From Sclerodactyla briareus (Eukaryota; Echinodermata; Holothuroidea; Dendrochirotida; Sclerodactylidae), in assembly GCA_026419785.1 (NCBI GenBank), contig JAODTK010002699.1:132646-196645 (forward strand): 64,000 nt of DNA, given 5' to 3'. The position numbers and the translations under genes were made by a program. The notes beneath the pieces were generated by a model. That model worked only from the letters and a program-made list of their open reading frames with translations. It was not told the origin of the DNA and did not search any database. Shown in pieces: positions 8,158 to 64,000 of the stretch (position 1 is its first letter; each line of letters begins with the position of its first letter).

Positions 8158-9503
8158 AACAAGGTGATCGCCCCCAGTGTCTTGCCTGGTTTAGTCTTGT
8201 GTTAAGATGATTATTAATTTTATTCTTCACTTGTTGAGTGAACGTTACATTATCTGGCTGCAATAAAAACTATGCACTTTGATTGACAACCACACTCTGT
8301 GAGTATAATCGTCTTGTCCAATTGTCTGGAGGTGCGTGCTCTATCAGTTCCGTGATTGGCTCCTTCCAATATTGGAAGCAACTTGTCTTATAAGAGGCCC
8401 GCTGGGGGCCCTGACAATCTGGACAAGACGTTGTTACGGTTGTTAAACACTGTAGTTACTGCGGGCGCACCTCAGAAATGTGGAAAAGGCTCACACAGAA
8501 AGGAAAGCGCATATTGGGCATGGTTGTCAACAACACAAGACTATGCCTGGTTGCGCGATCAGTGTTTTATTCTATTAGTCACCATGCAAACAATTATAAA
8601 GCATTCCATGTGTTGCTTTGAAATTTTTGTATTAGCATTTCACAGAAACAGCCTACAAATCAGTGACTAATTTCAAATTTCTAAGGACTGATTCTTGACA
8701 ATGTCTACTAAGGAGTATAAGTTTTGTGGAAATATGACTAAATTATGCAAATTAGACACAATAGTCAACTTCCATTGACCCATTTTCTCACTTCAAATAT
8801 CTCAAGATGGTGGACCACACTTAATACAGTTCATGGGAATCCAACAAACTTGAACATTCGAATGAATGGGGCAATTTATACTCACTGCATCACCCCCAGT
8901 GACTTGAGTCAATGTTAAAATTTTGGGGGACTAATGTAGCCATACCCATCAAGCTTCATGAAAATCAAACAAAATTTGAAATTGGGAATGAACCATGCAA
9001 AATAGACACCCTGAATGACCTCCAGTGTCTTCCAGTCTAAGTGGAAAATGTTGGAGAGTAAAGGTCAGCATATCTACCAGTTTCATGAAAATCCAGCAAA
9101 CTTTAAAATTATGTATAAATTATGCAAATAAGACAACTTAATTAGCATATTTTATGCTGAAAATCTAATCAGTTCATCCACCTTATATCCTGCATCCATG
9201 TGCCAAACCAAGTCACCATAGCACCTATGGTTTATCCGTAATCTTGCTAACGAGCCTAACAATAAATTACATAAAATAGGCTAATTACCTTACTTAATTA
9301 GTGAGCTTTTGTGCCCAAATCGTATCAGATCCTGTTCACCAAACTCCGATACTACATACAAAATTTCATCAAAATCGGTCTCACCTTTTCGAAGGAATCT
9401 TGCTAACGAGGAAGTGGGACACACATACACACACACATACATACACACACACAACAAAGTAATCACTAAGTCTCTTCCTGAACTTGATCAGACGAGACAA
9501 TAA
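8158..9503 (+). mobile_element. Family B Helentron-like element, interrupted
   Basis: The left end at 8160-8190 has the family stem-loop (GGTGATCGCC here, GGCGATCGCC in other copies), then CCAGT and GTCTTGCCTG. A 352-bp MITE interrupts it at 8192-8543, after which the body resumes with TGCCTGGTTGCGCGATCAGT. The middle is AT-rich with repeated AATTATGCAAATTAG and GACCTCCAGTG blocks. Towards the right end is a CA/TA microsatellite (9421-9452), then a hairpin with GTCTC and GAGAC arms at 9470-9498 and an A-rich tail. There is no coding capacity. This layout matches non-autonomous Helentron/Helitron2 elements. Confidence 0.65.
8192..8543. mobile_element. Foldback MITE with 12-bp TIRs and 9-bp TSD
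   Basis: The ends are perfect inverted repeats: TAGTCTTGTGTT at 8192-8203 and AACACAAGACTA at 8532-8543. A second inverted pair lies inside (CGTCTTGTCC near 8310 and GGACAAGACG near 8422). TGCCTGGTT flanks it on both sides (8183-8191 and 8544-8552), a clean 9-bp target duplication within family B sequence. A 9-bp duplication is typical of Mutator-like elements; the superfamily is an inference. It encodes nothing. Confidence 0.8.
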
Positions 9504-9504
9504 A

Positions 9505-10090
9505 ACTTAAATAGCTAGGCACATACTCCATAATACCAAAAAATTACTACTCACTGGTTCTGTTTGTCAATGAACCTCCTAGGAACACAAGACCATGAGC
9601 CACTGTTGCAAAAGACAAAACTCTCATCCAAGTCAAATTCTTCGGTCCGTAAAGGTTTTCCAAGTTCTCTAACCTTCGTTTTCTCTGCAGGCCGACTCAT
9701 GATTCTTGGAATCAGCCTCTGATGAACCTGAAAAATGTAACATTATTTTTATTATTTGTATTTGGCTGATGCCACAGATTGTATTCTGCATACATATTAC
9801 AACCCTACTTTTTTATATTAATTTCAACATATTTCAATATGAATTAGATATTGGGTTTTTTGTCACTCAGAGAAAGATGATAATACAATAATTATCCGTG
9901 ATTCTACCTGCACAGTGATTGATTGAGTGATTACAGTGTATCGAGTCAACTTTCAGATTTAACATGTACAGTTAGCAGCCAAACCAGGTCAAGCCAACAG
10001 ATGTCAATTCTTATGTCAAGTGAAGTAATCCTTGAGTCAAGTCAGGCATATTATTGCAGTCAAGCCAAAGCAGTTGCTGATTTATTAACC
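9505..10090. other. Unassigned DNA
   Basis: No recognisable gene or repeat boundary. The stretch 9930-10080 is rich in GTCAAG/AGTCAA short motifs. Confidence 0.4.
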
Positions 10091-10093
10091 AGG

Positions 10094-10490
10094 AAGCCAA
10101 GTGGCTTAGTGATTCCTTGAATGCCTCATGACTTTTCACTTAAAGTTTGTTAACCTCAGATGACTTTTGACCAACGGTAATAGGGATTGTGTACTCATTA
10201 TGGAGACACACACCAAGTATGAGCTACATCCACTCTGCAGGTCAGTATGGACTTCTTCATCATCCGGTGGGGTCGAGTTATCGTGAAATTGGTCAAAATA
10301 TCAATTTCAGATTTTCAGACCTTTGACCTACCCTAAAACAAAAGGGAACGTGTACTCATTATGGGAACCCATATACCAAGTATGAGCTTCATCAATCCAG
10401 TGGGGTTGAGTTATCGCTCTTCACAAGCCAGGGATCACACAAACAACAACCACAAACCAAACACACGCCTCAGTCACGAATCCAATAATA
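10094..10490 (+). mobile_element. Family C Helentron-like element, left end and body
   Basis: The left end has a stem-loop AAGCCA-AG-TGGCTT (10094-10107), then AGT and GATTCCTTGA. Two core units follow with TGTACTCATTATGG and ACCAAGTATGAGC landmarks and a CA-rich stretch. The right hairpin is lost: at about 10475-10500 only degraded CACGAATCC remains. Confidence 0.55.
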
Positions 10491-12050
10491 CTCTGTTCTA
10501 TCAAATCCGAAGAAATTTGGTGAATCTCAACCCCAGCTGGAGAATAAGAGGCAACAGAGGTTGAGGACATTAATCAAATTGACACTTGGGAGATCAAGAC
10601 ACTATACAATGTAGTCTCATGTATTGAGACCAGTAATTACATTACCTACCCCTTCAACACTTATAAATCCTTTCTTGCACTATGAAAATACTGATGAACA
10701 ACTGTTACAAAGAACGCATGTGATGCATTGCCTTGTCAACAATTGCGATTGATCAATCACCTATTACAAAGCACTCATTGACAACTAACAGGATGAGACT
10801 CTTATTGCATCCACAGCCAAGGCCATCTCCAAGGAAGCGATCAGGCCTGAGCATGGCCCCATGTTCCCCAACTCTCCCTGATGTACCATGATACCGATGA
10901 TCTGCTATCATCTGTATGAACCATGATGACTCAGCGATTGCGCTACATCGACCACCGGAATCTTGTGCATACAGGACATGGGAGCAGAGCCATCCATTAG
11001 AGCATATATACCAAGCATTTAAAGAACATGTACTCATAACGTGCAGCACAAAACAAAACAAGTGGGGTGAGCAGGTTACAGTTGCACAATCCATGCTGTT
11101 TTCAGAAGCAGACCTGTAACAGTGGTATTTACCAAGCTGGCTTCTTCAGAGAAAGTTGAACACACAATGGAAGAGCTGAGGCCTCCCAAGTTCATGACAT
11201 CGTAGGGCAGGACATTTCATGGCCCAGCGCAAGGAAAGCATGCCATTCCAGGCCCTAACCTCAAATCAGGGCCACAAGGGTTGCATGGAACAGCACAAAG
11301 CCGCCATGATTGATGAGCTCAATAAGGTTTTCTTCTCTCCCTGCATTGCACATCATATATATTCCAACAAACAGCCATGACAATAAATGAGGGTGCTGAC
11401 CTCCAAAGTCCTCTGAGTAGTTCTCCCAAGCTCTTCTACAAGCTCTACTGAATGTACTTTATGAGTGTTGCACCGTTGCGTAGTTGGCCATAAAACAGGA
11501 CAGCAGATTGATGTTCATTTTGGGTCGAGTAGATTTCACAGTTCTCACCCATCAATAGTAGTAGTTAGTCAATGTAATTGTATGATTTATACTTTCAAAT
11601 TGCTTAAATGATATCTATCAGCGTTTCTTGAATGAGCAAGCTTGCATCTGTCTACATGAGCTATGCAAAATGCAACAATTAGTAGTTTTATGTCAAGGCA
11701 TGACTATTAAAATTGATATTACTGACCAACAGAGCGTGATGGGTATCATGGATGGGCGGACAGGTTCTCTAACAGATGTCCCAGTGAGTGGCGATTGATA
11801 TTTCTGGAGTCCAACCCACCCTTCTTCATTTATATAGGAATATTGGGCCTCTCTTCATCTAGACGCAGTAGGCTAAAGCTAGATTTCCATAGATGCAGTT
11901 GCTGGATGCAACATGACACTTTAAAGCTGAATCAGCTGTAAATGGTTTGATTCATCACCCACCAAGTTTCAACTCCGGACTGAACGTAGGATGGGATCAG
12001 AAGTACGAATGAAGGACTTTATTGGGGTAACTTTAATTGGTGTAATTAAC
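10490..12050. other. Unassigned DNA
   Basis: No domain-bearing open frame and no repeat ends are recognised. Short open frames at 10753-11119 overlap on opposite strands and carry no motif. Confidence 0.4.
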
Positions 12051-12950: not shown

Positions 12951-13182
12951 TTAAACATATATCCTAAATTCAGTTCTAAAGGTTTGATAGAGAATTTTAT
13001 TCTCTCTCCAATTATGGTCATTGGAGTGGCAGGGTACTAAGCTATACAGGGAGACCACACTCCACACTTTCTACCTGGGCAGGGCATGGAAAATATGAGA
13101 TATTTATGTCATTGTAAATCGACCAAAAGTTCCATTCAGACTTTAAAATATTCGAGAAAATAAGCATCAATGATATTGAAAC

Positions 13183-14121
13183 AAGGCGATCGCCCAGTGT
13201 CTCGGCTGGTTGGGCGATCAGTGTTACTTCTATTAGTCACCATGCAAACATTCACAAGGCATTCCATGTGTCGCTTGAAAGATTTCAGTATTAGTATTCA
13301 ACAGGAACGCCTACAAAACAGTGACCAATTTCAATTTGAAAAAAAATATTGACAATGTCTATTACAGGAGAGTGAAAGTTTTGAGGAAGTTTGACTGAAA
13401 TACCTAATTATGCCAATTTGGCAACTGACCCAAGTTTCACGAAAATATGGCAAACTTTGAAATGATGCATAATTATTGCAAAATAGACCTGTTTTGAATG
13501 ACCTCCAGTGACCCTGAATCCATGATAAAATATGTTAGAACTCAAGGTAAACCATACCCACAAAGGTTCATGAAAATCCAAGCAACTAAGTTTTGGCAAT
13601 AAACTATGCAAATTAGGTATGTTGAAGCCCTCCATTGACCCCAAATCTTTGTTTTAAAAAGTTTTGCGGGACTGGAGGTAGACCAGATTCACCAAGTTTC
13701 GAGAAAATCTGACAAACTTTTAATTTCGCTAAATTATGCAAAATTAGACGACCTAATTACCATATTTGACGCGCTTTTGAAAACCTAATCAGTACCACCT
13801 ACCTAGTTATCCCGATCTATGTGCCAAACCAAGTCCCCATAGCACCTAACGGTTCATCTGTATCTGCTAACGAGAGCATGAAAAATAGTAACATAAAATA
13901 GGCTAATAACCTTACTATTAGTGACTTGGTGCCCAAAATCTAATCAGATCGTGATTATCCAACCCCGATGTTACCCTGAGAATTTTGTCACAATTGCACT
14001 TGCCGTCCGAAAGATATCATGCTCACGAGGAAAGGGTGACACACATACACACAAGCACACACCATACACGCCATAGTGACCACTAAGTCTCCTCTGAATT
14101 TCATTCAGGAGAGAGACAAAA
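13183..14121 (+). mobile_element. Family B Helentron-like element, intact ends
   Basis: This is the most complete B copy in the window. It has a GGCGATCGCC stem-loop at 13185-13194, then CCAGT and GTCTCGGCTGGTTG. The 0.8-kb AT-rich body is collinear with the 8.55-9.5 kb copy. Next come a CA-rich tract (14040-14065), a right hairpin with GTCTCCTCTGAAT and ATTCAGGAGAGAGAC arms (14087-14117), and AAAAA. It carries no open frame of note and is probably non-autonomous. Confidence 0.65.
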
Positions 14122-14271
14122 AGATACCGATATCGACGGATACCTCTCTACAAGAAGAATTCAGTCAAAATACAGCACTCAAACCATTTCTATTCTTGAG
14201 AAAATGCTGATTTTCAGTTCGAAAAAAAAAAAAATTAAAAAGCTGGCCGGCCCACAACGAATGTATACAAG

Positions 14272-14470
14272 AGCATTAATGGTGCTGTAGCTCAACTGCA
14301 CATATATGCACAACCAAGACAATTCATAATATGTGTCATTATGTTGAGATTATGAAGTCAAGAAGGCAGTTTCTAAAACAATTGCATATTGTGCCCCTGC
14401 AACCGCATTTGACCTTGATCTTAATAGGGCCACAGCTGTCTTAGAGTCAATAAACATGCTACTTCGTCGG
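14272..14470 (+). mobile_element. Family A Helentron-like left end fragment
   Basis: The stem-loop AGCATTAATGGTGCT (14272-14286) is followed by GT and AGCTCAACTGC. The next 150 bases parallel 63.62-63.77 kb and 58.71-58.82 kb (ATTGTGCCCCTG, TTTGACCTTGATCTT). The element stops before any tandem units or right hairpin. Confidence 0.5.
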
Positions 14471-14508
14471 TCTCAACATCCAGCGGAGAAATAACTAATT
14501 GAGCGAGA

Positions 14509-14960
14509 ACAAGGCGTGGTGATCTGTCCGAGTGTCCCAAGTGTCTCGCCCGCTTGTGCAATCAGTGGTTATTACATTAGAATGAAGCACAATTAGCAAT
14601 TGACTAGCTAACCATACATGTCGAGTTGAAGATGTAGTTTTTAAAACTTGAGAGAGGAAATTGCCACCCATTGATATGCCAATGTAAAATTTGTAAACAC
14701 CAGGTCACCTAATTAGCTATTTTATGCTGAAAATAGATCAGTCATGAAACATGCCAACTTGATTATATGTCAAAGTCAAACCACATCATTATAGTTCGTT
14801 TAGGCCATTGCATAATTGCTTAAGGGGTAAACTAAAATTCTATGGAATAGGCAAAGTACTCATTAATTATGGTGATTGGTGCCTAACTTCTGATTAGATC
14901 ACCTACCCCTAACTTTTTGTTGCCATTAATGTGTCATCAGCTATAGCTAAACCACACGCA
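14509..14960 (+). mobile_element. Family B fragment, left end
   Basis: AAGGCGTGGTGATCTGTCC, then AGTGTCTCGCCCGCTTGTGCAATCAGTG, resembles the B left end. A shortened body with CTAATTAGCTATTTTATGC follows. No right hairpin. Confidence 0.45.
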
Positions 14961-15835
14961 AAACATGCCCAGCTTGTCATTTGGCTGCTTTCCTGGTTCT
15001 GCTAAATTGCGCATGTGCAGTGGACCTGTAAGTACTGTCCTGGGAAATGGTTCACAATAGTCTTGGCATTCGGCTGTAAACAGTCAATGGAGCATGAATC
15101 CTTTGCGTCTCATCTGAGAAAGTGGTCGATCCGGGATTCACTGATTTCTGTTTGATGGAACGGAACATGGTGGTCCTGGGAAAGGTACACCCCTGCCTTG
15201 ATATCACTTTGACCACTTCTTGGAAGAGTAAAGGTGAGTTATCCAGTCAAAATCACCAGGATTCCTAGAGAGGCTTGAATGCTTCCTGAATGTTGTTGAA
15301 AAAGCTGTAATCATCAAGTAAGATCAGAAGAAGCCTACTGGGCAGAGAAATTATATTATGGGTGAAATTGTGTGACACACTGATGGCTTCTTGACCAGTG
15401 TCTTTTGTGTAAGGTACTGAGATCATACTGATTAATATCGAGGACAAATCAGCTATTTTACGATGGAATTATCTGCAGTTTAGCTTCAAATTTATCATTG
15501 TAGTTTCTGTGTTTTTCCAGCTATATTCGCCTCCTCATCCCCAATAGATGTGGCTGTTGTGTCCAATAGCCCCAGTTTGGATTTACAGTGGTGGAGGCTG
15601 CACTCGGCAATGGGTGAGCAGTATGCAAGAGGTGACCGGAATCCTTGAAGCCCTGAATGCCATGGCCATCGGCTTTTTGGCAATGGCCTCTAGCCCCAAA
15701 ATTGACTTCTTTTCAAAGCCAGCTCTGAGTGGAGAAAACACTAGGTTAGTGTTGCAACTGTACTTATATATATGGCATTTTTCTACAGCATGGGTCTGTG
15801 GCTACTTTGCACAGATTGTATTATAATGAAGGCTA
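14960..15835. other. Unassigned DNA
   Basis: No gene or repeat boundary is recognised. The open frame at 15548-15826 (+) is mirrored by an open frame on the other strand and has no motif. Confidence 0.35.
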
Positions 15836-15839
15836 CCGC

Positions 15840-16215
15840 ACACTTGCCTATCCCATCCTCAGATGGGGAGAGGGTATTTTTGTCAGGGTATTTTTGTCTA
15901 TTGTACTTGATCCACCATTATCAGAATGGAGTTTAACTTTCTCACTTCATACAGCCTTAAAACCCAATACCCTGCATGGTAGGGGAGTGGGTTGGCAAGA
16001 TTTTTCGTGGGAAGGGGTCCAACTCATCTCAGCCTATCCCAACCTCAGATGGGGAGAGGGCGATTGTTGTCAGGTATGTTTTCTACGTTGATCAACTTTT
16101 CAGAAGGGAGGGTAAAACTTGTCTCATATTCATCACCCACGCATTAACACACAATACTTTTGGGTAGGGAATTGGGTTTGCAAGATTTTTCGGGGGAAGA
16201 AGTCCACTCATATCA
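15840..16215. repeat. Tandem duplication of about 180 bp
   Basis: TCAGATGGGGAGAGGG occurs at about 15859 and 16044, and the paired GGTTGGCAAGATTTTTCG / GGTTTGCAAGATTTTTCG at about 15989 and 16168, giving a unit near 180-185 bp. Confidence 0.65.
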
Positions 16216-16224
16216 TATTGAAGC

Positions 16225-16905
16225 ATTGTTCTATATTAATGGGCCCCCAGGGCTACACTGGGCTTGGGACCTATCCCTGGGCACTCTAAAGATATGGCTA
16301 TTGACTCACTATTACTACTGAACATCAGCACTGTACAACAAAATTTGTATGAGATACAAATTTTTGGTATTAGCATATAATGGGCCCCTTGGCCCACAGT
16401 GGGTCTGACCCAAATGTCCTGAACACCCGGTAGCCCTCTACCCAAGGGGAAGACCATTCATGTAACCTAGCAAACATCAGATGAACCGTGTGGGAGAGAT
16501 GCAGTTCAAAAGTACTATGTGTGAACTTGTCATAAAATGCCCTTGGGCCCAAGTCGGACGTTGGACCAAAAAATCCTGAACCATAACCCCGAGGTACGGC
16601 TGTTGGACCATCATAATGACCGAACATCAACACCGACTCGTGCATCAAAATTTGTAAGGAGGAATACATTTGAAATTTTACACATAATGGCCTCTTTGCC
16701 AATGCCCTTTAAGGGCTTTGACCTGACCTTCACAGGTCAAACATGTCCAAGGGTCAATGAACATTGTGTCCAAGTTGGTCGACATCCTCACAGAATGACT
16801 GTTTGGGAGCAAAAAGGCAATGTTAACCCACCGGGAAGGTATATAGACAGAGAGAGTGACATGCAGATTCCATCCTCAACCCAGCCTAGCTGGTTTGAGC
16901 TAATA
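16225..16905 (+). mobile_element. Family A Helentron-like element, right part
   Basis: Diverged 140-155 bp units begin at about 16238, 16378 and 16528, each with a GGCCC-rich start, CCTGAAC, GACCATCATAATGACC and CATCAAAATTTGT. A unique module then matches 58.85-58.97 kb (GACCTTCACAGGTC, ATGTCCAAGGGTCAA). After a short GACAGAGAGAG tract comes the terminal hairpin CTCAACCCAGC-CTA-GCTGGTTTGAG (16875-16898) and CTAATAAAA. The left end is not found. Confidence 0.55.
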
Positions 16906-33690: not shown

Positions 33691-33694
33691 ACCA

Positions 33695-37874: not shown

Positions 37875-37990
37875 AAAAGCAAAGTTTCAGCTGGCATAAT
37901 AAGGAGGATAGATCGTAGATAGATAGATGATAGATAGAATGACATGGGCATGGCAATAGCTCAACCAGCAATAGCTGGTTTGAGCTAAAA
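37875..37990 (+). mobile_element. Family A right end, truncated
   Basis: A GATA tract (37907-37937), GACATGGGCATGGCAATA and the hairpin GCTCAACCAGC-AATA-GCTGGTTTGAGC (37959-37985) with CTAAAA lie inside a 953-bp array unit, replacing part of it. The left end is absent. Confidence 0.65.
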
Positions 37991-41376: not shown

Positions 41377-43161
41377 GCCACTGGCACAGTAGCTCACCCG
41401 CCAATATAGCATACTGATAGTATGTATTACAAGGAATTTGTGTTTTGATTGATCAGTCCAATGTGATTTTGTATTGACATGTCATACTCTCTTGAATCAT
41501 AATAGTGTTTAAAAAAATCCTAATAGAGGAACTTTCTTTTGGTCCCCCCACCTTTGTATCGTTATGTAGAAGAAAATTGGTCTTGCAAAACCTGGTGAAT
41601 ATGGACGGATCCGTTTGCAAGAGGGCCTCTTTCGCAAAATTCACCCCTAGATTACCATTGACCTCAAAATCCTGAACACCCCGTATGTACCTTGGTCATA
41701 GTAATACTGACCAGTTTTCATGAACATCCGCTTTAACTGTCGGAAGAGAAACATTTTGCAGTTTGTCACAAAAATGGCCAAAATTGACCCCTAGATGAAG
41801 TTTGACATTAACTTCCTGAACCCCCTTATGTATCTTGGTCAATGATAAAGATATCACCTCATGATCATGCCAATTCAGTCTGCGGGAGAAGCAGCGGTGT
41901 TTTGACTGTTTGAACACCAAAATGACCTGTTAGGCCAAAATGACCCTATGTGACTTTGACTAATTCCTAACCACTCATAAGTACCACTGGTCACTGATCA
42001 TACTGACCATTTTTTATGATCGTCCATCTACCCATAGAGGAGAAGCGCAGCTTGAAACCGTCTGACAAAATGCAAAATTGACACCCTAGATACCTTTACC
42101 CTCTCAATTCCTGAACACTCCTGTAGAAACAATTGGACCATAATAATATTGACCAACTATCATGTCCGCTCCACTCAATTTTCTGTGAGAGAACATTTTG
42201 TTTTGTTCGACCCAAAAAAATAGCTTTTTGGCCAAAATACCCCTAGATACCGTTTACCGGCAAATTCCTGAAACTCCCGTATGGCAATTTATGTCCCGAT
42301 AATACTGACCAAGTGTTATGATCATCCGAGTTGCACTGTAGGAGGAGAACCGCTGACACTTTTGACCGAAAGACCAAAATTGACCCCGAGATTACCTTTG
42401 ATCCAATTTCTGAACAACCCCGATGTACCATTGGTCAATGATACTACTGCCAACATCATGTCATCTAATTCAATCTCTGGAGGAGAACTTTTGTTTGGTG
42501 ACCCAAAAATTCGCTTTTGGCCAAAATTACCCCTATATGACCTCAAATTCCTGAACATCCCCCGTATGTAATAACTATTAGTCACCGATAATACTGACCA
42601 AGTTTCCTGAGCATCCCTGATTGAACTGGAGGAAGGAACCGTGAACCGTTTGAACTAAATACCAATGCCCCTATATGACCTTTTGATCCCAAATTCCTGA
42701 ACACCCTTTAGTCCCATTGCAATGTTAATAACGACCAACTATCACGATCATCCAATTCCATCTGTGGGAAAAGAATCATTTTGTTTGTTCCACCACAACA
42801 TTGCTTTTTCAGCCACAACGAGCCCTAGATGGACCTTTGACCTCAATTCCTACATCCCGGAGGAAACATTGGTCACCGGATACTGACCAATGTTCATGAA
42901 CATTCCGCTTTGAATCTGTAGAAGAAGTATTGTGCAGTTTTTGTGGCAAAAGGGCAGACATTGACCCCTAGATGACCTTTGCCATCGCCTTCCTTAACAA
43001 GCCCAGATTCCCCTTCACAGTGTCATTGTGACATTTCAATCATGATCCCCAGTACACCGTATGATTACTATTTGATCAATTGTTGACGGACAACAACAGA
43101 TAGATAGATAAGACATGCAGAATCACACTAAGCTCACCCGCACATGCTGGGTGAGCTAAAA
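41377..43161 (+). mobile_element. Family A Helentron-like element with both ends, inserted in S2
   Basis: The left stem-loop GCCACTGGC (41377-41385), ACAGT and AGCTCACCCG (41391-41400) begin the element. AGCTCACCCG recurs exactly as the first arm of the right hairpin (43131-43140; full hairpin to 43157), followed by AAAA. The interior holds eight to nine diverged units of about 145-150 bp (TGACCCCTAGAT, CCTGAACACCCCGTATGTACC, CATCATGATCATCC). A GATA tract lies at 43099-43111. No protein is encoded. It interrupts S2 relative to S1. Confidence 0.75.
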
Positions 43162-43917: not shown

Positions 43918-43980
43918 CAGCAAGACGAATCGCCAAAAAGTGAATCGCCTGGTTGCGCGATGCTGGTTGGTATTATTCCT
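43918..43980 (+). mobile_element. Degraded family B left end
   Basis: CAAGACGAATCGCCAAAAAGTG then AATCGCCTGGTTGCGCGATGC resembles the B left end, placed where S2 ends. Confidence 0.35.
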
Positions 43981-43984
43981 ACAC

Positions 43985-45115
43985 AACAACCAACTATTTC
44001 CGCAGACCATCGTCTTGGCCAAACGAACCCCATATTTTCACATATACCACATAAAAATTCCTAAATAACTGACCCCATAAGTTTTCCTCTTAATACAAGT
44101 CCCTGTTTCTCTTCATCCCCCTTTCCACTCTTCTATCCATAAAACCCAAATTTTAATAAGTTTTATCGCTCAGTCCAACCACTTCTTTGACCCAAATCCA
44201 ACTTGGAATGCTCTAAATCCCTTAGCAGCCACCCGGGCTTCTTTGCCTTTTAAATCAAATTTCTTCATTATCATTGCCTTTTATTTTCCAAGCCCAGGAC
44301 ATGCATCCACCCCCCACCCCCGCCAGCACAAACAAACACTCAGGGTTGGAGTCGAGTCAGCAAACCGAGTCCGACCGAGTCCTCAACCATCAATCCGAGA
44401 CAGTCCTCAACATCCGAGTCAATTCCCAGTCCTTGTCCCGAGTTCGAGTCCCGAGTCCCCGATTACAACTCGGCATTTTTTTCAGCCAAATATATGGTAT
44501 TAGTTTGAAAGAGCAAGGTATTGCAGTTGTTGTTGCATCATGCCCTCAAACAGAAGCATCTATTTGTATTTGCATATGCATCCAATGCCAAATTCCAATG
44601 TTTTCTGTACTGACCTGTTTTTTAGAGTTGAGACATCATCAAGGCATTCCTAACATAGCAGTGTGGATGCAATTGCAACTGTGGCGTGTCAAACAATACA
44701 TGAATTCCCTATCATGAGATTCGCCGCCTCCTGAACGCATTTCGCAAGTGCTGACAAGCATTTTGAAAAACAATTAGCATACAGTAGTACATTGCATCTA
44801 AATTTTCAAGTCCATGTAAAAATATCTGCAGCATTTCTCGCACCTTTCGTTTTAGGATTTTCTGTGTCGTCCAAGAGGTCCCAACAGCCGAGTCCCGAGT
44901 CTGAGTCCCAGTAAGAAGACAGGAAAGAATAATGCCAAGTATTTTGTAGGTCTAGGTTCAACCTAATCACATTGGTTGGGTGTGGGGAGGTTTTCTTGTG
45001 GGCGCTTTAACGCATAAATTGTTACAGTAGCTATGGTTTACCTCGTTCCTCCGTGCTTTTCTCACCGTACTATTATATGACGTAATTCAATCAAATTCAA
45101 GAAATCACACACTCA
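43985..45115. other. Mostly unassigned; GAGTCC hexamer cluster
   Basis: GAGTCC/CGAGTC motifs cluster at 44345-44465 and 44885-44915 (GAGTCGAGTC, CCGAGTCCG, GTTCGAGTCCCGAGTCCC). The rest shows no gene or repeat end. Confidence 0.5.
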
Positions 45116-45129
45116 TAGCCTAGAAAATG

Positions 45130-45692
45130 TTAACAGACCATACCTACTGGAGTTTTGGGCAAAACTTTTACCAAGTTGGAATTGGGAATAATTTATCAAA
45201 TTGAACACATACAATGACCTCTACTGACCCCAGCTGTACCGTTAAAATGATCATGATCAAGGTGGTCACATCTACCAGTTTTCGTGAATCCACACCTCCG
45301 AAAATTCCATCAATTATGCAATAGACCATCCTTAATTAGCATATTTGGGCTGAAAATGTACTCAGTTTTCTAATCAGTCCTACCTGTTTCCCCATCCGTC
45401 TACATGTCAACTACATCACTGACACATACGTTCCTGCGTTATCTTGCTAACTCCTTAAACAATGAACTACATAAATAGCGGTCACCCAACTTAATTAATA
45501 ACTTGCTGCCCAAAATCTAATCAGATTGTGTACATCCAACCCCGGTGCTACATACTATTTCGTCATAATCGCCTCACGGTTTGTGAAATCCTGATCCTGC
45601 TACCAATAAAGTGTGCCATACACACACAGCACACATACACAACCCAAGTGAACCACTAAGTTCTCTTCCTGAATTTCACACACTCAGCGAGA
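45130..45692 (+). mobile_element. Family B right half
   Basis: This copy is collinear with B from ACCAAGTTGGAATTGGG to a CA tract (45617-45640) and a degraded hairpin (TTCTCTTCCTGAAT ... CAGCGAGAC) near 45660-45692. Confidence 0.55.
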
Positions 45693-45775
45693 CAGAAATA
45701 GGCCCCTAAGATTTTTACCCTAATAAAGATAGGCTTCCCAAGATTTAATCGAGGATCCTGCCTAAAAGAGCTCTC
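45693..45775. repeat. Segment S3, partial
   Basis: ATAGGCCCCTAAGATTTTTACCC and TTTAATCGAGGATCCTGCC match the left part of S1 and S2. It is cut off by the GC-rich insertion. Confidence 0.6.
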
Positions 45776-51970: not shown

Positions 51971-51975
51971 ATGAC

Positions 51976-52110
51976 AAGGCGATCGCCCCGAGTGCCGCCT
52001 GTTGTCTCGATTCAGTCGATTCTTCTTTTAGTCCCCATGTAAACAATTACAGAGCATTCCATATGTTGGCTTTTAAATACCCCAATACCTCTTAAATATT
52101 TCACATTCAT
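51976..52110 (+). mobile_element. Family B left end
   Basis: GGCGATCGCC stem-loop (51978-51987), CCGAGTGCCGCCTG and ATTACAGAGCATTCCATATGTT match the first 130 bases of B. It is then lost. Confidence 0.6.
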
Positions 52111-52114
52111 GCCA

Positions 52115-52855
52115 TCTTGACTACACCCCTTGATCTACCTACTGTACCCTCTCCCATTATAAACCAATACTTAATAGTTAATAGTTCCTTCGATTACTGT
52201 ATTGCCAAACAATGTAAATGGACCCTAAATCTATAACGTTTATCCCTATATATCATCAAAGAGTATGCCCCTTTATACATCTATCTATCTACTACTTCCA
52301 TCAACTCTCTAGGGAGTTCACACCCACCCCTCTCCCATCCCCTGCCAAGTGGAATAAGTCCAGGCTAATTAGGCTTCCCTGGCAGGAGTCATACAGGCCC
52401 TACTGGGCGAAGCTATGACTATATATGATACCGGGATTTACCCCTCTCCTCCCCCCCCCCCCCACCTCGCACACCAGAGCTACGGCAGGTGGACACCTGA
52501 CACCATTCATTCTTGAATAGGTGCCTGGGAGTAAGTAAACAAATGACAAAGTATTTACACTTTATATGGTCCAGTGTAAGGGGCCCAGAAGAGGTTATGA
52601 CAGGCGGATGTGAACCTCAAGGTAAAAATGCAGGTTTTGACAATTAATGAAATCTCTGTCTGTCACATGGAATCTAGTTATGATGAATGGAAATACATCT
52701 GGAGGGTTTGAAATGAGTAAAACATTTTGTTATGATAGCCTGCTAATAAAAATAGTGATGTCAGCATCCATGCTGGTCAGCTAGGGTGCCGCCAAGACTA
52801 AACATTCCGAAAAAGGTTAGCGTACAGTCTCTGGAACTTGTTGCAGTAAATGTTA
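52115..52855. other. Unassigned DNA
   Basis: No gene or repeat end is recognised. There is a C14 run near 52450-52463. Confidence 0.4.
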
Positions 52856-52859
52856 ATAT

Positions 52860-53575
52860 TGACCCAGTTTTTGGTCTCATAAGGTGAACCTTGAATACCT
52901 TTGATGACATATGACGGTTTTTATGAAAATGTTTCCCCTTGATCATTGCAGCATGTCCCAAATTCGTTATATAACACACAGTCACTAAATAATTGGCAGA
53001 AATTTTAATCTTTGGCAGTTTCTTGACCTCGAAATTACCTTGATGCCATGACGGTTTTTTATGAAAATGCTTGCCTAATGTGATGCATCAAGCCCCAAAA
53101 GCATTATGTCATCAGGTACACACACCCTATGCTATCGCCCAAAAGGTATCAAATCAACCTTGGCCCTTGTAACTTTAAGACCCAGGTGGTCAGATTGAAG
53201 GCGGGAGTTGGTTTCGTCTAATGTAGCAGATATAGAACTACCACCTATCCAAAATCGACAGTTTTTATTTCCTTTGCCTGTAACTCCTAAAATAAGCACC
53301 TTTTCTTGAAACTTGACCTTTGACCTTTTGACCTGTCTTAGATGTTGTTTGATTACTGAACCCAAAAATTACCAGACAAATCCTAACGACACGCCTATCT
53401 GGGCATCATTCCAATTGTTCCTGGTCCATTTACAAAATTCAAAAAATTGTGTAATTTCATCAAATTATTCCACATTAAATGACCTTAAGTGACCTTTCAC
53501 ACTGTTGTTACTTTATCATGATCAAGGTGTACCATCCTCCACCAAGTTCATGAGGATTCACAATGAACACGCCTA
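52860..53575 (+). repeat. TGACC-rich repeat block
   Basis: ATGACGGTTTTTTATGAAAATG and GTAACTTTAAGACCCAGGTGG show kinship with the 953-bp array and with 56.29-56.6 kb. TGACCTTTGACCT, a perfect DR1 on the minus strand, lies at 53314-53326. Confidence 0.5.
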
Positions 53576-53579
53576 ATGT

Positions 53580-55735
53580 TATTGCGAAAAAAGCTATTAA
53601 ATTAAACGTTGAACCTCTTGTAACTACCAAAGTTGGTCTCGATCGAAGTCGGTGAGTTGGTTTCCTCGCTCCTGAAGCACACAAGGTCTATCATCATATC
53701 CAAAAACAACGTTTTTTTTGGGGGGGGAGGGCCACGTAACTCCTTAAATAGTCACATTTATCTATTCAGACTCACCCCTTAACCACATGACCACCCGGAC
53801 AGAGGTCATTGAGGTCACAGGTCACACACATGCAGTCAACAATTATATCACATGGTGAACCTTCAGCCTTCACAGAATTCCATTCTCCGACTATGGCCAT
53901 AAAACAGTTTTTGGCCCCCCTAATGACCTTGAATGAACATGGCATTTTACTGAATCTTGTTACTCTCCATGTGAATACATCCACTCCTAGGAGCACTTTT
54001 TGACATTTCGATGAACATGCCCAGTGCTTTGCCAAAATCTATAATCAGTTTGTTTTTTTACCCCTACGTGGACCTTTGATGACCTTCAATGACAGACGGT
54101 GTGGTTTATAAAAATTGTTACTCTCCATGTGATGCATCCACCCTAGAAGCATAGTGCATTTCCAATGACCACGCCTAATGTTATTGCGAAAAGCTTATCA
54201 AATGAAACTGTGACCCTTGTAACTACCAAAAGTATGCGTCCGACGAAGCGGGAGTTGGTTTCCTCTTCCTCCATGAAGCACACAAAGGTCCTATCACATA
54301 TCCAAAAATAAAACCAGTTTCATTTTTTTTTTGGGCCCTTAACTCCTTAATTATCACATTTACTCAGACCACCTTAATTATAACCACATGACCACATGCA
54401 ACCACAGAGTTCAAATTGAGTCAGAGGTCACCCACATGCAGGTCAACAATTATATGACAATAGTGACCAAACATTCCACCTCACAAATGTCAATTCCTCG
54501 ATTATGGCCAGAAAAAACATTTTTGACCTTAAGTGACTGAATGACCTTTAATGACATGGCAGGTTTTAGGAAATTGGTAACTCTCGCATGTGGATACATC
54601 GCACTCCTAGGAGCATTTTGCATTTGATGAACATGCCCAGTCTATTGCCAAAAAGTACTAATCAGTTTTTGACACCCTAAGTGACCTTGATGACCTTCAT
54701 ATGACAGTGGCGGTTTTTATAAAAATTGTTACTCTCATGTGAATGCATCACTCCTAGAAGCTATTGCATTCCAATGAACAACGGCAATGATATTGCGAAG
54801 AAGCTATTAAATTAAACGTTGACTCCTTGTAACTACAAGTATGCGTCCGAACACACATCGAAGTCGGTAGTTGGTCTGCTCTCCATAAAGCACACAAAGG
54901 TCTAATCACATTCCAAAAATACCAGTTTCTATTTTTTGTGTGCCTGTAACCTCCTTAAACTAAGCACATTTATTCAAGACTCCAACGTTAAACCACATGA
55001 CCACCCGAAAGAGGTCAAATTGAGGTCAGAGGGCACCCACATTGCAGGTCAACAATATATGACAATAGTGAACCTCCCGCCTTCACAGATATCAAATTCT
55101 CCGATTTATGCCAGAAAACAGTTTTTGACCTTAAGTGGACCTGAATGACCTTTAATGAATGGCAGTTCTTATGAAAATTGTAACTCTCCATGTGATACAT
55201 CCACTCCTAGAGCAATTTGCATGCTGATGAACATGCCCGGCTATGCCAAAAGTTACTAATTCAGTTTTTGACCCTAAGTGACCTTGATGACCTTCAATGA
55301 CCATGGCAGGTTTTTATAAAAATTGTTACCTCCATGGATGGCATCCACTTAGAAGCATATTGCTTCAATGAAACACGCCCATGTTATTGCCGAAAAAAAA
55401 AAAAAGTTTAACTTAAACTTGACCCATTGTAAATCCAAAGTATGCGTCCGATCGAAGCGGGAGTGAGTCTTCTCCATAAAGCCACACAAGAGTCTAATCA
55501 ATATCCAAAAAATAACCAGTTTATTTTTTGTGCCTGTACATCCTAAATAGCCACATTTATTCAAGACTCAACCTTTAACACATGACCACCCGACAGAGGT
55601 CAAATTAGGTCAGAGGTCACACCATGTCAGGTCAACAATTCTATCACAATGGTGACGCCTTCTTCCATCCACCTTCACAGACATCATTCTCCGTTTATGC
55701 CAGAACCAGTTTTTGACCGCTAATGACCTTGATGA
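53580..55735 (+). repeat. Array of about 600-bp tandem units
   Basis: CCACATGACCACCCG-type landmarks recur at about 53782, 54377, 54995 and 55575, giving spacings near 595, 618 and 580. Each unit carries AATGACCTTTAATGACATGG, CTCTCCATGTGATGCATCC, GTTATTGCGAAAAAGCTATTAA, TATGCGTCCGA and TTTATTCAAGACTCAACC. Copies differ by many one-base indels. No coding potential is seen. Confidence 0.75.
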
Positions 55736-55737
55736 CA

Positions 55738-56288
55738 AGATTAGTAAAAATAAATGACCTCTGGGGCCCTCGTCCCTACTGTAAAATTCATTGGGACTAT
55801 AATAAACCATCTCCACAAGTTTTGTCAAATCCAACAAACTTTCAAAACCTATCGCCAGAAATTATGCAATTAGACTACTTAATTAGCATATACAATGCCA
55901 GGAATCTGATCGATTCGTTTACCTCTTCATAGTTGTTATATACCCCGAACGCCTCACCAATGTCTCTACTGATCAAGAGAATATCTTGTACACAAGCCGT
56001 CCAGGCCAATTTATCATTAAACATGCAAATTTATGCAAATGATCATTGTCCTTTCAGGATAAAAAAAGACACAAGAGAAAAGAATGATGCACATCGGCAC
56101 CTCTTCACGCGCACCTCACAAAAAGGTCCCAGCATGGTGGCTTCCACGGTGCATGAGATATCTAACCGCACATACGGACAACAGACGGACAGCCAGCAGA
56201 CAACAGACAGACCAGACGGACAGACAGACAACCACACAACAATGTGACCACTATGTCCCTCCGTAACAAAGTTCAGGCGATACAAAAT
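55738..56288 (+). mobile_element. Family D Helentron-like element
   Basis: The body matches 5.84-6.39 kb (CCCTACTGTAAAATTCATTGGGAC, TAATTAGCATATACAATGCC, CCGCACATACGGAC). A GACAGAC/CAGACGG tract (56185-56235) precedes the right end CCGTAACAAAGTTCAGGCGATACAAAA (56261-56287). The window's TGACC array continues on the right. Confidence 0.55.
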
Positions 56289-56811: not shown

Positions 56812-57338
56812 ATGCGAATTATAACACTAGAAGACATTTGGTGACCTTGTCTCTACTGTAAAATTTATCGGACTATAGATAAACCATCTCCACCTCCACC
56901 GCGTTTCTGTCAAAATCCAACGAAGTACTTTTAAAAATTGCAGAAATTATGGCAGTAGACTACTTAATTAGCAATATCTGCCAATTATCCAATCAGTTTG
57001 TGAACACTACATAGTTGTTGTATATCTGAACTGCATCACCATGCTCTACAGATCAAGAGATATCTTGTACCACAGACGCTTTTGGGCCAATTTTTTCATT
57101 AAATCTGGCACTTTATGGCAAATTATAGGGTCTTTGGAACGAGAGGTGGCTGCACATCGACAACTCTTCACCGACCCTCCCACAAAAATGTTTCACTCAT
57201 CATGGAGGCTTTCAGGTTTCGGGAAAGTATTGAACCGCATCATACGGACAGACAGATAGACTGATGGACAGACAGCACCCACACAGAGTAATCACTATTC
57301 TCTCCTTGAACAAAGCTAAGCTCAGGCAAGACCAAAAT
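56812..57338 (+). mobile_element. Family D Helentron-like element
   Basis: This is collinear with the 55.74-kb copy: TCTCTACTGTAAAATTTATCGG, GACTACTTAATTAGCAAT, CGCATCATACGGACAGAC. The right end CCTTGAACAAAGCTAAGCTCAGGCAAGACCAAAA is partly degraded. Confidence 0.55.
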
Positions 57339-57654
57339 GGTTAAATGCATCAATATCCCTGTTTACTTCTTTTTGACATAAAACGTGGGCTCGCGTTTAT
57401 TTTCTTCTAAAATAACAACCGGTGGGACTCTTAGTACGCCTGCAAAACTATTATCTTCATTTGCATTCATTCAGGCAGGTAATGTCAAGTGAGAATATAC
57501 TTGGGTAAAATAATGAAACTGGAGCACCAATGTTGGCCTCAAACCACACAATGTACCAAGACTGTCGATACTGTGTCCCCAGGAACTTTTGAAAACAAAC
57601 TGTATACCTCTTGTGTTTCTGAACAGTTTCTGTGTTGGGTGATGATTTTCTTTT

Positions 57655-58610
57655 TCTTTGACAGGGAGGCAGCAGTAGTTGTGAGTGGCACAAAGTCATC
57701 TCCTGCTAAGGTTACCTCCAGCGTCCCACAGGGATCTGTCCTGGGGCCCATCCTTTCCTGCATCTATTAATGATATATTTTTTTTATGTTTGGATTTGCT
57801 GATATATGGACTGTGTGTGTTATCGGGTTAATGAGAACACTGGTCATTGCAACCAACTTCAAGCTGATATCACAAATTTGGGACGATGGGCGGACAGATG
57901 GGGCATGAGATTCCAGCCTGTCAAGTGTAATATTATGTCTATCTCCAGGAAACGGAATCCCACTCGTTTTAACTATTTTCTGAATGAAGTTCAAATTACT
58001 AGAGTCGATTGCATTAAATATTTGGGTGTCTTGATCACTCATGATCTGAACTGGGGAAGACATATTCAGGGTGTCTGCAATAAGGGAAACAAAATTATGG
58101 TTGTCTCTACCAAGAATCTATCTTTCTGTCCTAGGGAAGTGAAGCTCGCTGCATACAAAGGTCTTCTTAGACCTGTGTTGGAATATGCAAGCACTGTTTG
58201 GGACCCACACCAAATATATTTGAAAGATATAGTCTGAGGCGATTCAGAGGAGAGCAGCAAGGTTTGTTGCGTCAGACTATTCTAGAGAGCCTGGCACCGT
58301 CACATCTTTGCTTAATGACTCTGATCTAGTCCCGCTTGTTGACAGGCGAAAACAAAATAGGACTCATTCTCTTTGCCAAGGGTATTTATGGCCAGGCAGA
58401 TATCCAGTTAATCGTCTCCGACTCCCGGTGCGTAGAAGTCGGCATATGCATGACATGCACTACTGTCAGTTGTATGCTAGGACAAACTTTTATAAGTATA
58501 GTTTCTTGCCGAATACTATTCATGAACTGGAATAGTCTTCCTTCTTCTGTCATATCTGCAACTGGTGTATCAGTTGAGCCTATTGCTTATCTTAGTAAGG
58601 AAAAATAATT
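57655..58610 (+). pseudogene. Decayed CR1/Jockey-type reverse transcriptase, C-terminal half
   Basis: Frames shift but the order is standard. SSVPQGSVLGPILSCIY (57715-57770) is the motif B region. A degraded FADD stands at 57795-57805. LQADITNLGRWADRWGMRF then KCNIMSISRKRNPT covers 57862-57965. IKYLGVLITHDLNW, then AAYKGLLRPVLEYASTVWDPH, gives the thumb (58012-58210). C-terminal LVPLVDRRKQNRT and YKYSFLPNTIHELE close it (58330-58535). The longest open piece is 143 codons (57806-58237). Motif C lacks the catalytic Asp pair, so it is inactive. It is 5'-truncated, with no endonuclease. Confidence 0.8.
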
Positions 58611-58699
58611 TTTTTAGGGCCTAATTTTGTATCTCGACGCGTGCGTAGTGAAAGAATGTCCTGCTTTTGGATGTGTCACTGTATCAAGAAAGAAGAAGA

Positions 58700-59030
58700 G
58701 AAGACGAAGGTACAATATGTGATATAAATGTTCCGGATCATGAGTGCAAGAAGTCAGTTTCAAACAATAGCCTATTGTGCCCCTCTAACTACTTTTGGCC
58801 TAATTATTTTATGGCCTAAGATGTCTTGGCAGCCAATAATGGCCTACATCACCTTCAATGATCTTGACCTTCACAAAGTCAAAAATGTCCCATGGGTCAA
58901 CAACTTTGTGTGCAAGTTTAGTTGATAACCATCACAGAATCTGTTTGGGACAAGAAGGCACTTGTTGAACTACTAGAGTCCACAGGCAGATTACAATAGC
59001 TCAACCAGCATTAACTGGTTTGAGCTAAAA
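58700..59030 (+). mobile_element. Family A Helentron-like element without tandem units
   Basis: Body TTATGTGCCCCT-type block, CTAAGATGTCTTGG, CTTGACCTTCACAAAGTC and ATGTCCCATGGGTCAA join left- and right-module sequence seen in other A copies with no 140-bp units between. The right hairpin GCTCAACCAG...CTGGTTTGAGC (58999-59025) and CTAAAAA are intact. The left stem-loop is missing. Confidence 0.6.
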
Positions 59031-61025: not shown

Positions 61026-61030
61026 CAAGA

Positions 61031-62726
61031 GTGCCAATGGCAACGTAGCTCCCCCTGTACTTGTATATCATTAGGCCTACTGGCTTTTTTCTATCAGGAA
61101 TAAAAATGTGAGAATGATTGAAATGTGTAGATGATACATGTACATGTTATAACAAATGAGCAAGAGGATGTAGTGGGCTAGTTCCAATAGTGACTATCCA
61201 GGTATTATTATAAACCACTATCAACACTATGCAACAACACTGCAGAAAAAGATACATTTTTTGCATGATTTATTAATGTACCCTAGGGTCCACACTGGCC
61301 AAAAATTCAAAAGCACCCCAAATAGCCCATTACATAAGGACCACTGCTCCCAAATTTAAAGAAAATCAACTGAAGCTTGTAAGAGGAGATGCATTTCAAG
61401 CACCATTGTGTGTAATTCATAAAATCGGCCCTAGGGCCCAAATAGCACCTGGGACCAAAAACTCCTGAACACCCCGAAGGTACGACTATTAGAGCATCGT
61501 TATGACCGAACATCAGTACTGTGCACCAAAATTTGTAGGAGAAGCATTTTGTGTGATTTCACATGATGGGCCCTAGGGCCTAAGTGGGACCTTGGACCAA
61601 AATTCCTGAACACCCTGAAGGTACGGCTATTAGACCATCATTATGACCGAACATCAGTACTGTGCACCAAAATTTGTAGGAGAAGCATTTTGTGTGATTT
61701 CACATGATGGGCCCTAGGGCCTAAGTGGGAACGTGGACCAAAATTCCTGAACACCCCGAAGGTACGGCTATTAGACCATCATTATGACCGAACATCAGCA
61801 CTGTGCATCAAAATTTGTAGGAGAAGCATTTTGTGTGATTTCACATGATGGCTCTAGGGCCTAAGTGGGACCTTGGACCAAAATTCCTGAACACCCCGAA
61901 GGTACGGCTATGAGACCATCATTATGACCGAACATCAGTACTGTGCACCAAAATTTGTAGGAGAAGCATTTTGTGTGATTTCACATGATGGGCCCTAGGG
62001 CCCAAATGGGAATGTGGACCAAAATTTTCTGAACACCCCGAAGGTACGGCTATTAGACCATCATTATGACCGAACATCAGCGCTGTGCATCAAAATTTGT
62101 AGGGGAGCATTTTGCGTATTTCACATGATGGGCCCTAGGGCCTAAGTGGGACCTTGGACCAAAATTTCCTGAACACCCCGAAGGTACGGCTATTAGACCA
62201 TCATCAAAATTCGTAGAAGCATTTTGCGTGATTCACATGATGGGCCACAGGGCCCAAGTGGGACCTTGGACCAAAATTTCCTGAACACCCCGAAGGTACG
62301 GCTATGAGACCATCATTATGACCGAACATCAGCGCTGTGCATCAAAATTTGTAGGAGAAGCATTTTGTGTGATTTCACATGATGGGCCTAGGGCCCAAGT
62401 GGGACCTTGGACCAAAATTTCCTGAACACCCCGAAGGTACGGCTATTAGACCATCATTATGACCGAACATCAGCACTGTGCATCAAAATTTGAAGAAGCA
62501 TTTTGCGTGATTCACATGATGGGCCCTGGGATCACAATGGGCCTTGGGCCCAAATTCCTGAACACCCCAGATGCCCCTCACTTGGCCATCATTGTGACCA
62601 AGTTTCACTATGATCCCATCAAACACTGTAGGAGGAGTAGCAATTTGAATCAAATGTTAACAGATAGATAGATTAGACATGCAGGATCACAATAGCTCAC
62701 CCAGCACATGCTGGGGTGAGCTAAAA
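61031..62726 (+). mobile_element. Family A Helentron-like element with eight 140-bp units
   Basis: The left stem-loop TGCCAATGGCA (61032-61042) is followed by ACGT and AGCTCCCCCTG. After about 230 bases a tandem array begins. The landmark GGTACGRCTATTAGA lies at 61479, 61620, 61761, 61901, 62043, 62183, 62295 and 62434, so the period is 139-142 bp with one 112-bp unit. A GATA tract (62662-62675) and GACATGCAGGATCACAATA lead to the hairpin AGCTCACCCAGCA...TGCTGGGGTGAGCT (62694-62722), then AAAA. There is no coding capacity. Confidence 0.75.
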
Positions 62727-62729
62727 TAC

Positions 62730-63325
62730 CAGGTAGAGTGAACCCAAATCGTATTCGTCTTCAACGGTTTAGATCACACAGACCACACCACCCCCTTGGT
62801 TTTTGTCCGCTCCACCTGGTATATACGAGGTTTGAAAAGAATGCACCATGTATAATGCAAGGGGAACAGATCCGAGAGCATGGTATCACATGGAAGACCT
62901 GGGTCGATATACAATGACTTATGTCTAGATGAAGAATCATTTGGAGAACAATAAGAGCCGTACTAACAACTCAGGCCTAGCCCTCACCCACATGAAAACA
63001 CAGGCTGAGCTTGAGTGTATAATCCATATCAGTCTAGGTCTGGGCTAGGCTTAACGTTAGGCCTATGCATGACTACACCAAACATATGCCTACTGCCTAG
63101 GCTAGCACAATTACAATTTGGTTGGATGGATTGTATTCACTCAAGTCCTATGAGTTTGCAATCTGCGGGAATCGCAAGCTGTCTCGCGACCCGCGACCAA
63201 AAAAAAAACACGAATCTCCTGCATGAATAGACCTATGGGAATAACACAGGAGCGAAAAAAAACGTGTCTGTTTGCCTATTCGAGCATTTGCATGCCTAGT
63301 CTAAGCAGCTTAAGGGAGCAACATA
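62730..63325. other. Unassigned DNA
   Basis: No gene or repeat end is recognised. Confidence 0.4.
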
Positions 63326-63329
63326 CAAA

Positions 63330-63605
63330 ATTGCAACTTGGTCGGACCGAGCATTCTGTACTTTTCGTGTTAACAACATTTTTCAGACTCTGACCTCTCT
63401 TGACCTTTGACATGGCCCCAAGACAATAGAGACCATGTACTTATTATGGGGAACCCACATACCAAGTATGAGCTTATCCATCCAAGTGGGATCAAGTTAT
63501 GTTGTTAACAAGGCTTGGCAATCACATACACCCATAACAACCCCCACCTGCAACTCAACCCACACCTCATGACTGCATAGATTCCTCTGACTTCGTCAAG
63601 GAACT
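63330..63605 (+). mobile_element. Family C right end
   Basis: One C unit (CATTCTGTACTTTTCGTG, ATGTACTTATTATGGGG, ACCAAGTATGAGCTT) leads to an AC-rich tract and the hairpin ATTCCT...GTCAAGGAAC (63581-63604). The left end is absent. Confidence 0.6.
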
Positions 63606-63607
63606 AG

Positions 63608-64000
63608 AGCACCAATGGTGCTGTAGCTCAAACCGCATAAATGCACCAAGATGATGTACACTATGTGATAAATGTTCGACATCATGAGGCAGTTTCAAAC
63701 ATTGGCCTAATTTGCCCCTGTAACAACTTTTGACCTTGATCTTCATACGTGCCAAGATGTCTTTAACAAATAATTCCACATGATTGGTCCCAGGGCCCAC
63801 ACTCGACTGAGACTGGGACTGAGTCCCAAATACATGGGCACCCTGATGTACGTCTTTCAGCCATCATTATTTGGTAGAATTTGTAGAGATCCAAAGTTTG
63901 CAGTATTTCATATGATTGTCTCTAGGCCAACATACCAGACCCCCAATGGCCCTCATACCCAAAGACCAATACATATACCTTAATTCAATCAATTGAAGTT
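63608..64000 (+). mobile_element. Family A left end, cut by the window edge
   Basis: The stem-loop AGCACCAATGGTGCT (63608-63622), GT and AGCTCAAACCGC start immediately after the family C hairpin. The left module (TTTGCCCCTGTAAC, TTTTGACCTTGATCTTC) then runs into GGGCCC-type units near 63790 onwards. The right end would lie beyond the window. Confidence 0.6.

Follow-up and report, generated by a model that had tools for sequence, protein, structure and literature searches.

Several families of decayed Helentron-type transposons with one end design, and co-orientation of neighbouring copies, in the holothurian Sclerodactyla briareus

The closest described systems to the elements considered here are the Helitron2 elements of Bao and Jurka (2013, PMC3627910) and the Helentrons and their non-autonomous derivatives (HINEs) of mite, Culex and Drosophila (Thomas et al. 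2014, PMC4067079); statements about these and the other published systems draw on excerpts of the papers cited. In Helitron2, one asymmetric terminal inverted repeat (ATIR) lies near the 5′ terminus and forms a hairpin with downstream bases, the second lies immediately upstream of a 3′ hairpin, insertion occurs after TTTT, and related elements show compensatory changes. Helentrons and HINEs combine palindromic subterminal inverted repeats (subTIRs), strings of T at their boundaries, a 3′ palindrome, microsatellites and tandem repeats, leave the target unmodified, carry the serine of GSPH in their Rep protein, and fall into families defined by the subTIR. These features recur, the Rep serine elsewhere in the same genome, in the DNA analysed here, a stretch of 64,000 nucleotides from Sclerodactyla briareus (GenBank assembly GCA_026419785.1, contig JAODTK010002699.1, positions 132,646 to 196,645; hereafter the window), which forms the end of one contig (C2102) in a 319-Mb genome of 3171 contigs. 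The window contains at least four families with a common end design, named A1, A2, B and C.

The 3′ ATIR of Helitron2 lies about 20-30 bp from the end, compared with about 17-20 here, and one Helitron2 group has target duplications, whereas none were seen in the present families; autonomous Helitron2 members have been described without an endonuclease (PMC4067079). In the mite, a single genome holds 7 families and 21 subfamilies, classified by their subTIR (PMC4067079); the elements of the window differ from those in belonging to another genome, in being new families of old copies, and in that no intact autonomous partner was seen. The genome of the Pacific oyster contains 11 HINE elements (Cg_HINE; PMC7492417), which are alike by their description, with a 5′ subTIR and complementary inverted repeat, a microsatellite, a satellite array, a 3′ subTIR and a palindrome. 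FoHeli of Fusarium oxysporum (PMC5148889) shares the asymmetric inverted repeats, one of which lies inside the 3′ end; two of its subgroups have a hairpin at each terminus, and several subgroups occur in one species complex. Unlike the present elements it is found in a fungus, has TNAT on one side of its insertion site and A or T on the other, and includes autonomous copies. The end design is already known, and the families are new members of the published Helitron2/Helentron kind. The present analysis adds a set of families together with their checked ends, their insertion sites and their copy numbers, and the finding that the element is to be read on the other strand.

The elements are read as non-autonomous Helitron2/Helentron elements (HINEs), old and decayed, that fall into at least four families, each with an inverted repeat of its own, and we give this reading a probability of about 0.95. 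Demonstrated directly are the anatomy, the family-specific match between the ATIRs, three insertion sites, the copy numbers and a broken Helentron-type Rep. An earlier note on this DNA had proposed that several families share one end design, namely a left stem-loop, AGT and a 10-bp motif, and on the right a hairpin of that motif followed by an A-tract. The common design was borne out, the family ends outscoring shuffled sequence. The left motifs described are present in the sequence at 41377 (A), about 13185 (B) and 10094 (C), as are the right hairpins of A (43131-43157), B (40690-40718, the copy quoted there) and C (about 36531-36554). Beyond A1, B and C, a further family (A2) and a divergent subfamily of B were found; these may or may not be the D and E of the note, which were given there without coordinates. 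The direction of the elements is opposite to the one first given: the former right end is the 5′ end, and the elements lie on the minus strand of the window.

Read on that strand, the order is TTTT, ATIR hairpin, microsatellite, a satellite array in several copies, ATIR, a spacer of ACT or similar, a small stem-loop, a few bases and a T-run. The AGT spacer (ACT on this strand) is kept in some copies, while A2 has TGT and other copies are decayed. The 5′ repeat lies at or near the terminus and can form with adjacent bases an imperfect hairpin that is strong in A1 and A2 (-11.0 to -12.4 kcal/mol, z -5.9 to -6.4), less stable and moderate in B (z -3.5 and -2.4), and weak in C. The other copy of the repeat lies just inside the 3′ stem-loop, and the asymmetric arrangement is thus present. 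When representative copies are compared by eye, the hairpin's partner arm is offset by one base relative to the ATIR, with an additional mismatch in B, and the two ATIRs agree with each other; this fits a pairing of ATIR with ATIR that would displace the hairpin, which is still a proposal. A1 and A2 have hairpin-adjacent bases and a satellite in common and differ in the ATIR (AGCTCACCC versus AGCTCAAACC) at both ends, and the hairpin partner has changed together with it. The ATIR probably differs between families because a change in one copy has to be matched in the other copy and in the hairpin partner.

The ends were sought by a glocal scan of both strands, with the best of 6 Markov shuffles as reference and with minus-strand matches that overlie plus-strand ones (palindromes) left out. 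Left ends scored 30, 27, 20 and 15 in B (shuffle best 11), 27, 22 and 17 in C (shuffle best 12) and 23 and 15 in A (shuffle best 11), and right ends scored from 37 to 19 in six copies of B (shuffle best 13) and 32 and 19 in C (shuffle best 11). A fifth B left end, at 14521, merely equalled the shuffles, and a fourth C left match (score 13, at 6338), which sits within a B right end, was discarded. Profile models made from the window ends recovered them and added two left ends of A2 type, one at about 63600 and a weak one (E 0.5) at 14267; a rebuilt A2 model recovers both additions, each being among its training ends. When the 12-mer on the inner side of the stem-loop is compared with the right hairpin's 3′ arm in reverse complement, the mean score within families is 7.15 of 12, which exceeds the match between families, and 0 of 20,000 label permutations reached the observed value; the test is not fully independent, as single-ended fragments were put in families by that same end, and the two-ended elements are cleaner in this respect. 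A strict scan for the whole architecture in single copies returned 2 matches, neither a real element (60 shuffles: mean 0.5, maximum 2 per strand), and missed the real ones because the copies are decayed. A single decayed copy is no evidence; the case rests on the families, the empty sites and the genome counts. A scan of viral contigs with the B left end gave no match.

Within the window, one A1, one B and one C copy have paralogous empty sites. Both flanks of the A1 copy at 41371-43157 match the unit that carries a 5S match, and the corresponding empty site (32790-33010) contains a poly-A run. The satellite that hosts the C copy at 35377-36554 offers three comparable units, and one comparable satellite unit (empty site 52970-53190) exists for the B copy at 51975-56283. 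In all three cases the right junction falls directly before AAAA and the left one about 3-6 nt outside the stem-loop, and no target duplication was seen in the three comparisons. The stem-loop taken at first as the left terminus is therefore not the end of the element, and the A-tract formerly counted as part of the element belongs to the target. Of 8 genomic B copies examined (from 17 matches), 5 have ACAA directly outside the stem-loop, and beyond these four bases nothing is evidently common to the copies.

Across the genome, exact right-end motifs number 934 for B, 463 for A2, 471 for C and 14 for A1, with 0, 1, 0 and 0 matches, respectively, for reversed-pattern controls. The Helitron_like_N domain gave 3 genome matches at 2 loci, all over the cut-off, and 0 of 14 control genomes had a match. 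GSPHxH, the Helentron signature with its diagnostic serine, is present at both Rep loci. At one of them, on contig C2413, an A2 5′ end (99109) is followed on the same strand by A-type satellite (99301-100803 and 101828-102378) and a Rep frame from 102597. The Helentron/Helitron2 affiliation proposed in the earlier note is in this way supported by the published end structure, by empty sites without target duplication and by the GSPHxH Rep fragments. Its further suggestion of several recognition specificities in one genome holds in that different repeats are present; it is not new, as the same has been published for mite and oyster, and each repeat may be read by its own Rep.

Several observations weigh against this assignment. 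A fourth comparison, of the B copy at 43921-45693, did not give a clean empty site. The 5′ hairpin of C is weak (z -1.6), the 3′ stem-loops are short and individually non-significant (z -0.15 to -1.6), and in the B example the predicted 3′ fold differs from the stem-loop quoted. About 17-20 nt separate the 3′ ATIR from the element end, compared with 38-60 nt for the subTIR in mite HINEs (PMC4067079). Both Rep loci are broken and neither is on the contig of the window, where the genome search with Helitron_like_N gave no match; no 3′ end was found for the A2 copy that bears Rep on C2413, and that Rep may be an independent fragment. No intact autonomous element was found, and the single PIF1 helicase match, from a family that also matches in 3 of 14 control genomes, is broken by stops and lies elsewhere than the Rep loci.

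Two other assignments are very improbable. The ATIRs are inverted repeats of each other and DINE-like elements were once annotated as miniature inverted-repeat transposable elements (MITEs; PMC4067079), as would suit DNA transposons, or MITEs, that depend on a DDE transposase and have the 10-mers as terminal inverted repeats (TIRs); yet the repeats are asymmetric, one being terminal and one internal to the stem-loop, and the lack of target duplication at the empty sites of three copies argues against TIR/DDE transposons. Canonical Helitrons (Helitron1), with a 5′ TC, a 3′ hairpin followed by CTRR, and insertion between A and T, would account for a 3′ stem-loop on a rolling-circle-type element and for a Helitron_like_N domain in the genome, but the ends lack TC and CTRR, a hairpin is found at the 5′ end as well, the target is a T-run, and the Rep motif is GSPH, not GLPH.

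As Helentron-type elements, the copies would most likely have moved by rolling-circle transposition driven by a Rep-helicase of that type. After a nick at the junction of the T-run and the 5′ ATIR, one strand would be displaced as far as the 3′ stem-loop, where the process would terminate, and the single strand would insert at a T-run with no target duplication. The end point might be set by ATIR-ATIR pairing in competition with the 5′ hairpin, as proposed by Bao and Jurka (PMC3627910).

All 28 profile matches in the window, partial ones included, run in the same direction, the models having been trained on the window's ends, and because of this one-way orientation the genome was tested as well. 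Upstream on the same contig 18 matches point the same way as in the window and 8 the other way (two-sided p = 0.08), and the orientation of the window is extreme, not typical; contigs C2413 and C2926 are uniform, with few ends behind this. In the part of the genome sampled, neighbouring Helentron-type copies tend to point the same way. The count uses exact right-end motifs among the matches listed, in contig order, and comprises a first set of 300 places (B 100 of 934, A2 100 of 463, C 100 of 471) and a later set of 189 places found with variant motifs (B 89 of 89, C 100 of 117); the 14 A1 places were left out. Neighbours less than 3 kb apart were collapsed, so that 14 of 489 places were dropped and 475 kept. 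The range of 3-50 kb was chosen after the B and A2 lists had been viewed by eye but before the variant-motif lists were drawn up, and the collapse rule and the bins beyond 50 kb were set after the first of the later lists was in hand.

Adjacent listed pairs in the same and in opposite orientation number 23/4 at 3-15 kb, 32/11 at 15-50 kb, 27/14 at 50-100 kb, 12/19 at 100-200 kb and 9/11 beyond 200 kb. Over 3-50 kb this amounts to 55/15 (one-sided binomial p = 8e-7), with 40/14 in the first set (p = 3e-4) and 16/1 for pairs involving the later lists, which may contain one member of the first (p = 1e-4). Cross-family pairs in this range give 33/7 (p = 2e-5) and same-family pairs 22/8; with one listed pair per contig the figures are 34/8 (p = 3e-5) overall and 22/4 (p = 3e-4) across families. 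At 100-200 kb the cross-family listed pairs lean the opposite way (3/11), and in a previous version of the combined set, among all pairs beyond 200 kb and not merely adjacent ones, 57 are the same and 76 opposite, these pairs being non-independent. Strand totals are even for B (465 to 469) and A2 (246 to 217); the imbalance in C (195 to 276, p = 2e-4) could arise from clustering.

As a control, a motif from long interspersed nuclear elements (LINEs) was used (428 matches, 100 of them listed; a first LINE motif had given 20 matches). Listed LINE pairs at 3-50 kb are 2 same and 4 opposite, and LINEs relative to the nearest listed Helentron 11/8, whether 45 positions picked by eye or the 351 listed places on the contigs in question are used. 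By Fisher's test against the Helentron 55/15, LINE pairs differ with p = 0.03, LINE-Helentron pairs with p = 0.08 and both pooled with p = 0.02, the control being small and weak. K-mer searches for an abundant non-Helentron repeat to serve as orientation control yielded none that was usable. Target composition was rejected as the cause, since outside the elements the window has 301 A-runs and 234 T-runs, an excess too small for the effect.

The orientation could be set by selection or transcription (intron strand, R-loops, unistrand clusters of PIWI-interacting RNAs) or by local duplication, for which the chances are only a little short of even. Orientation biases are known for other transposons, and of the listed adjacent pairs less than 3 kb apart 8 of 9 are co-oriented, 6 of those same-family, as tandem copies would be. 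Against this, the signal persists between families whose ends differ and when each contig contributes a single pair, and a cross-family signal that remains after the collapse of neighbours below 3 kb argues against simple duplication.

It is also possible, though we hold it tentatively, that the insertion strand follows replication-fork polarity through single-stranded target DNA, by analogy with IS200/IS605, a precedent among bacterial single-strand transposons. The excess of co-oriented listed neighbours at 3-50 kb, in the later lists and across families as well as overall, would agree with this, as would the lack of such an excess among the LINE pairs listed. Conversely, the LINE control is small and the LINE-Helentron comparison is not significantly different by itself; the opposite lean at 100-200 kb had not been predicted; and transcription, gene-strand selection or segmental duplication could yield the same pattern. 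Transcription and gene-strand selection are at least as likely as fork polarity.

A strand bias common to families whose ends differ suggests that its source lies in the target and not in the transposon. That the insertion strand of Helentrons is set by a property of the chromosome, coherent over tens of kb, common to all families and most simply the direction of the fork, is somewhat unlikely on our estimate. If true, the orientation of elements would be a fossil record of germ-line fork direction, with the lagging-strand template as the single-stranded target. Co-orientation could matter more than the end design, and any genome that has Helentrons and for which replication has been mapped would allow it to be tested. 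No report of neighbour co-orientation or strand bias in Helitrons or Helentrons was found in a literature search that covered listings and excerpts of PMC5371812 and left most subscription literature outside, and the excerpts of the Cg_HINE paper (PMC7492417) do not mention the relative orientation of neighbouring elements.

Table 1. Coordinates of elements, element parts and the 5S match in the window
Feature	Position	Strand	Remarks
A1, both ends	41371..43157	-	inserted in unit paralogous to the 5S rRNA-match unit; contains satellite array and GATA microsatellite
A1 copy above, 3′ end	41371	-	
A1 copy above, 3′ stem-loop	41377..41385	-	followed by spacer ACAGT
A1 copy above, 3′ ATIR	41391..41399	-	AGCTCACCC
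A1 copy above, 5′ ATIR hairpin	43131..43157	-	
A1 copy above, target AAAA	43158..43161		
A1, both ends	61026..62722	-	141-bp satellite array
A2, both ends	14268..16901	-	ATIR AGCTCAAACC; encloses weak B left end (about 14510)
A2, both ends	57519..59026	-	decayed left end recognised by eye; interrupted by LINE reverse-transcriptase fragment
A2, left (3′) end	63605..64000	-	start approximate; abuts C right end; runs off contig
A2, 5′ hairpin	37958..37986	-	no left end found; adjacent host satellite partly missing
B, both ends	8160..9498	-	
B, both ends	13182..14117	-	B left end of the earlier note
B, both ends	43921..45693	-	left flank in 5S-type unit
B, both ends	51975..56283	-	in satellite; 4.3 kb including other satellite
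B, 5′ hairpin, truncated copy	40690..40718	-	letters of the B right end of the earlier note
B subfamily, 5′ hairpin	6354..6384	-	start approximate; right flank in C-family internal repeats
B subfamily, 5′ hairpin	57298..57332	-	start approximate
C, both ends	35377..36554	-	left end exact to a few bases; 303-bp satellite array; host satellite about 950 bp
C, left (3′) end and internal part	10089..10470	-	C left end of the earlier note; right end not found
C, left (3′) end, truncated	40174..40213	-	
C, 5′ hairpin	63580..63604	-	
5S rRNA match	32685..32801	+	sole Rfam match at gathering score; surrounding unit provides the A1 empty site

Four satellite-like tandem arrays are found in the window, at 61399-62637, 35551-36363, 51570-51977 and 53556-55736, with units of 141, 303, 147 and about 600 bp, respectively; several of them lie within elements, as in oyster HINEs. 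At 63580-64000 the left end of A2 begins right at the right end of C, as though A2 had inserted at the A-tract of C. C-family internal sequence forms an inverted duplication at 33691-34385, with its left part plus and its right part minus, and this is the only minus-orientation sequence of these families among 7 minus-strand self-matches.

Paralogous units extend over 32270-33688, 40757-43909 and about 45707-45777, with A1 and B elements in or beside them; the 5S match is in one of the units (32685-32801), and the others have none at gathering score. Fragments of non-long-terminal-repeat retrotransposon reverse transcriptase lie at 19308-19676 (minus) and 57803-58234 (plus), both RVT_1 matches below the curated cut-off. 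A Pfam scan of 20 of the 296 window frames of at least 60 amino acids found no Rep and no helicase in them; the same frames gave two reverse-transcriptase matches and two others below cut-off, and a short zinc-finger match over the cut-off at 1815-2318 on the minus strand.

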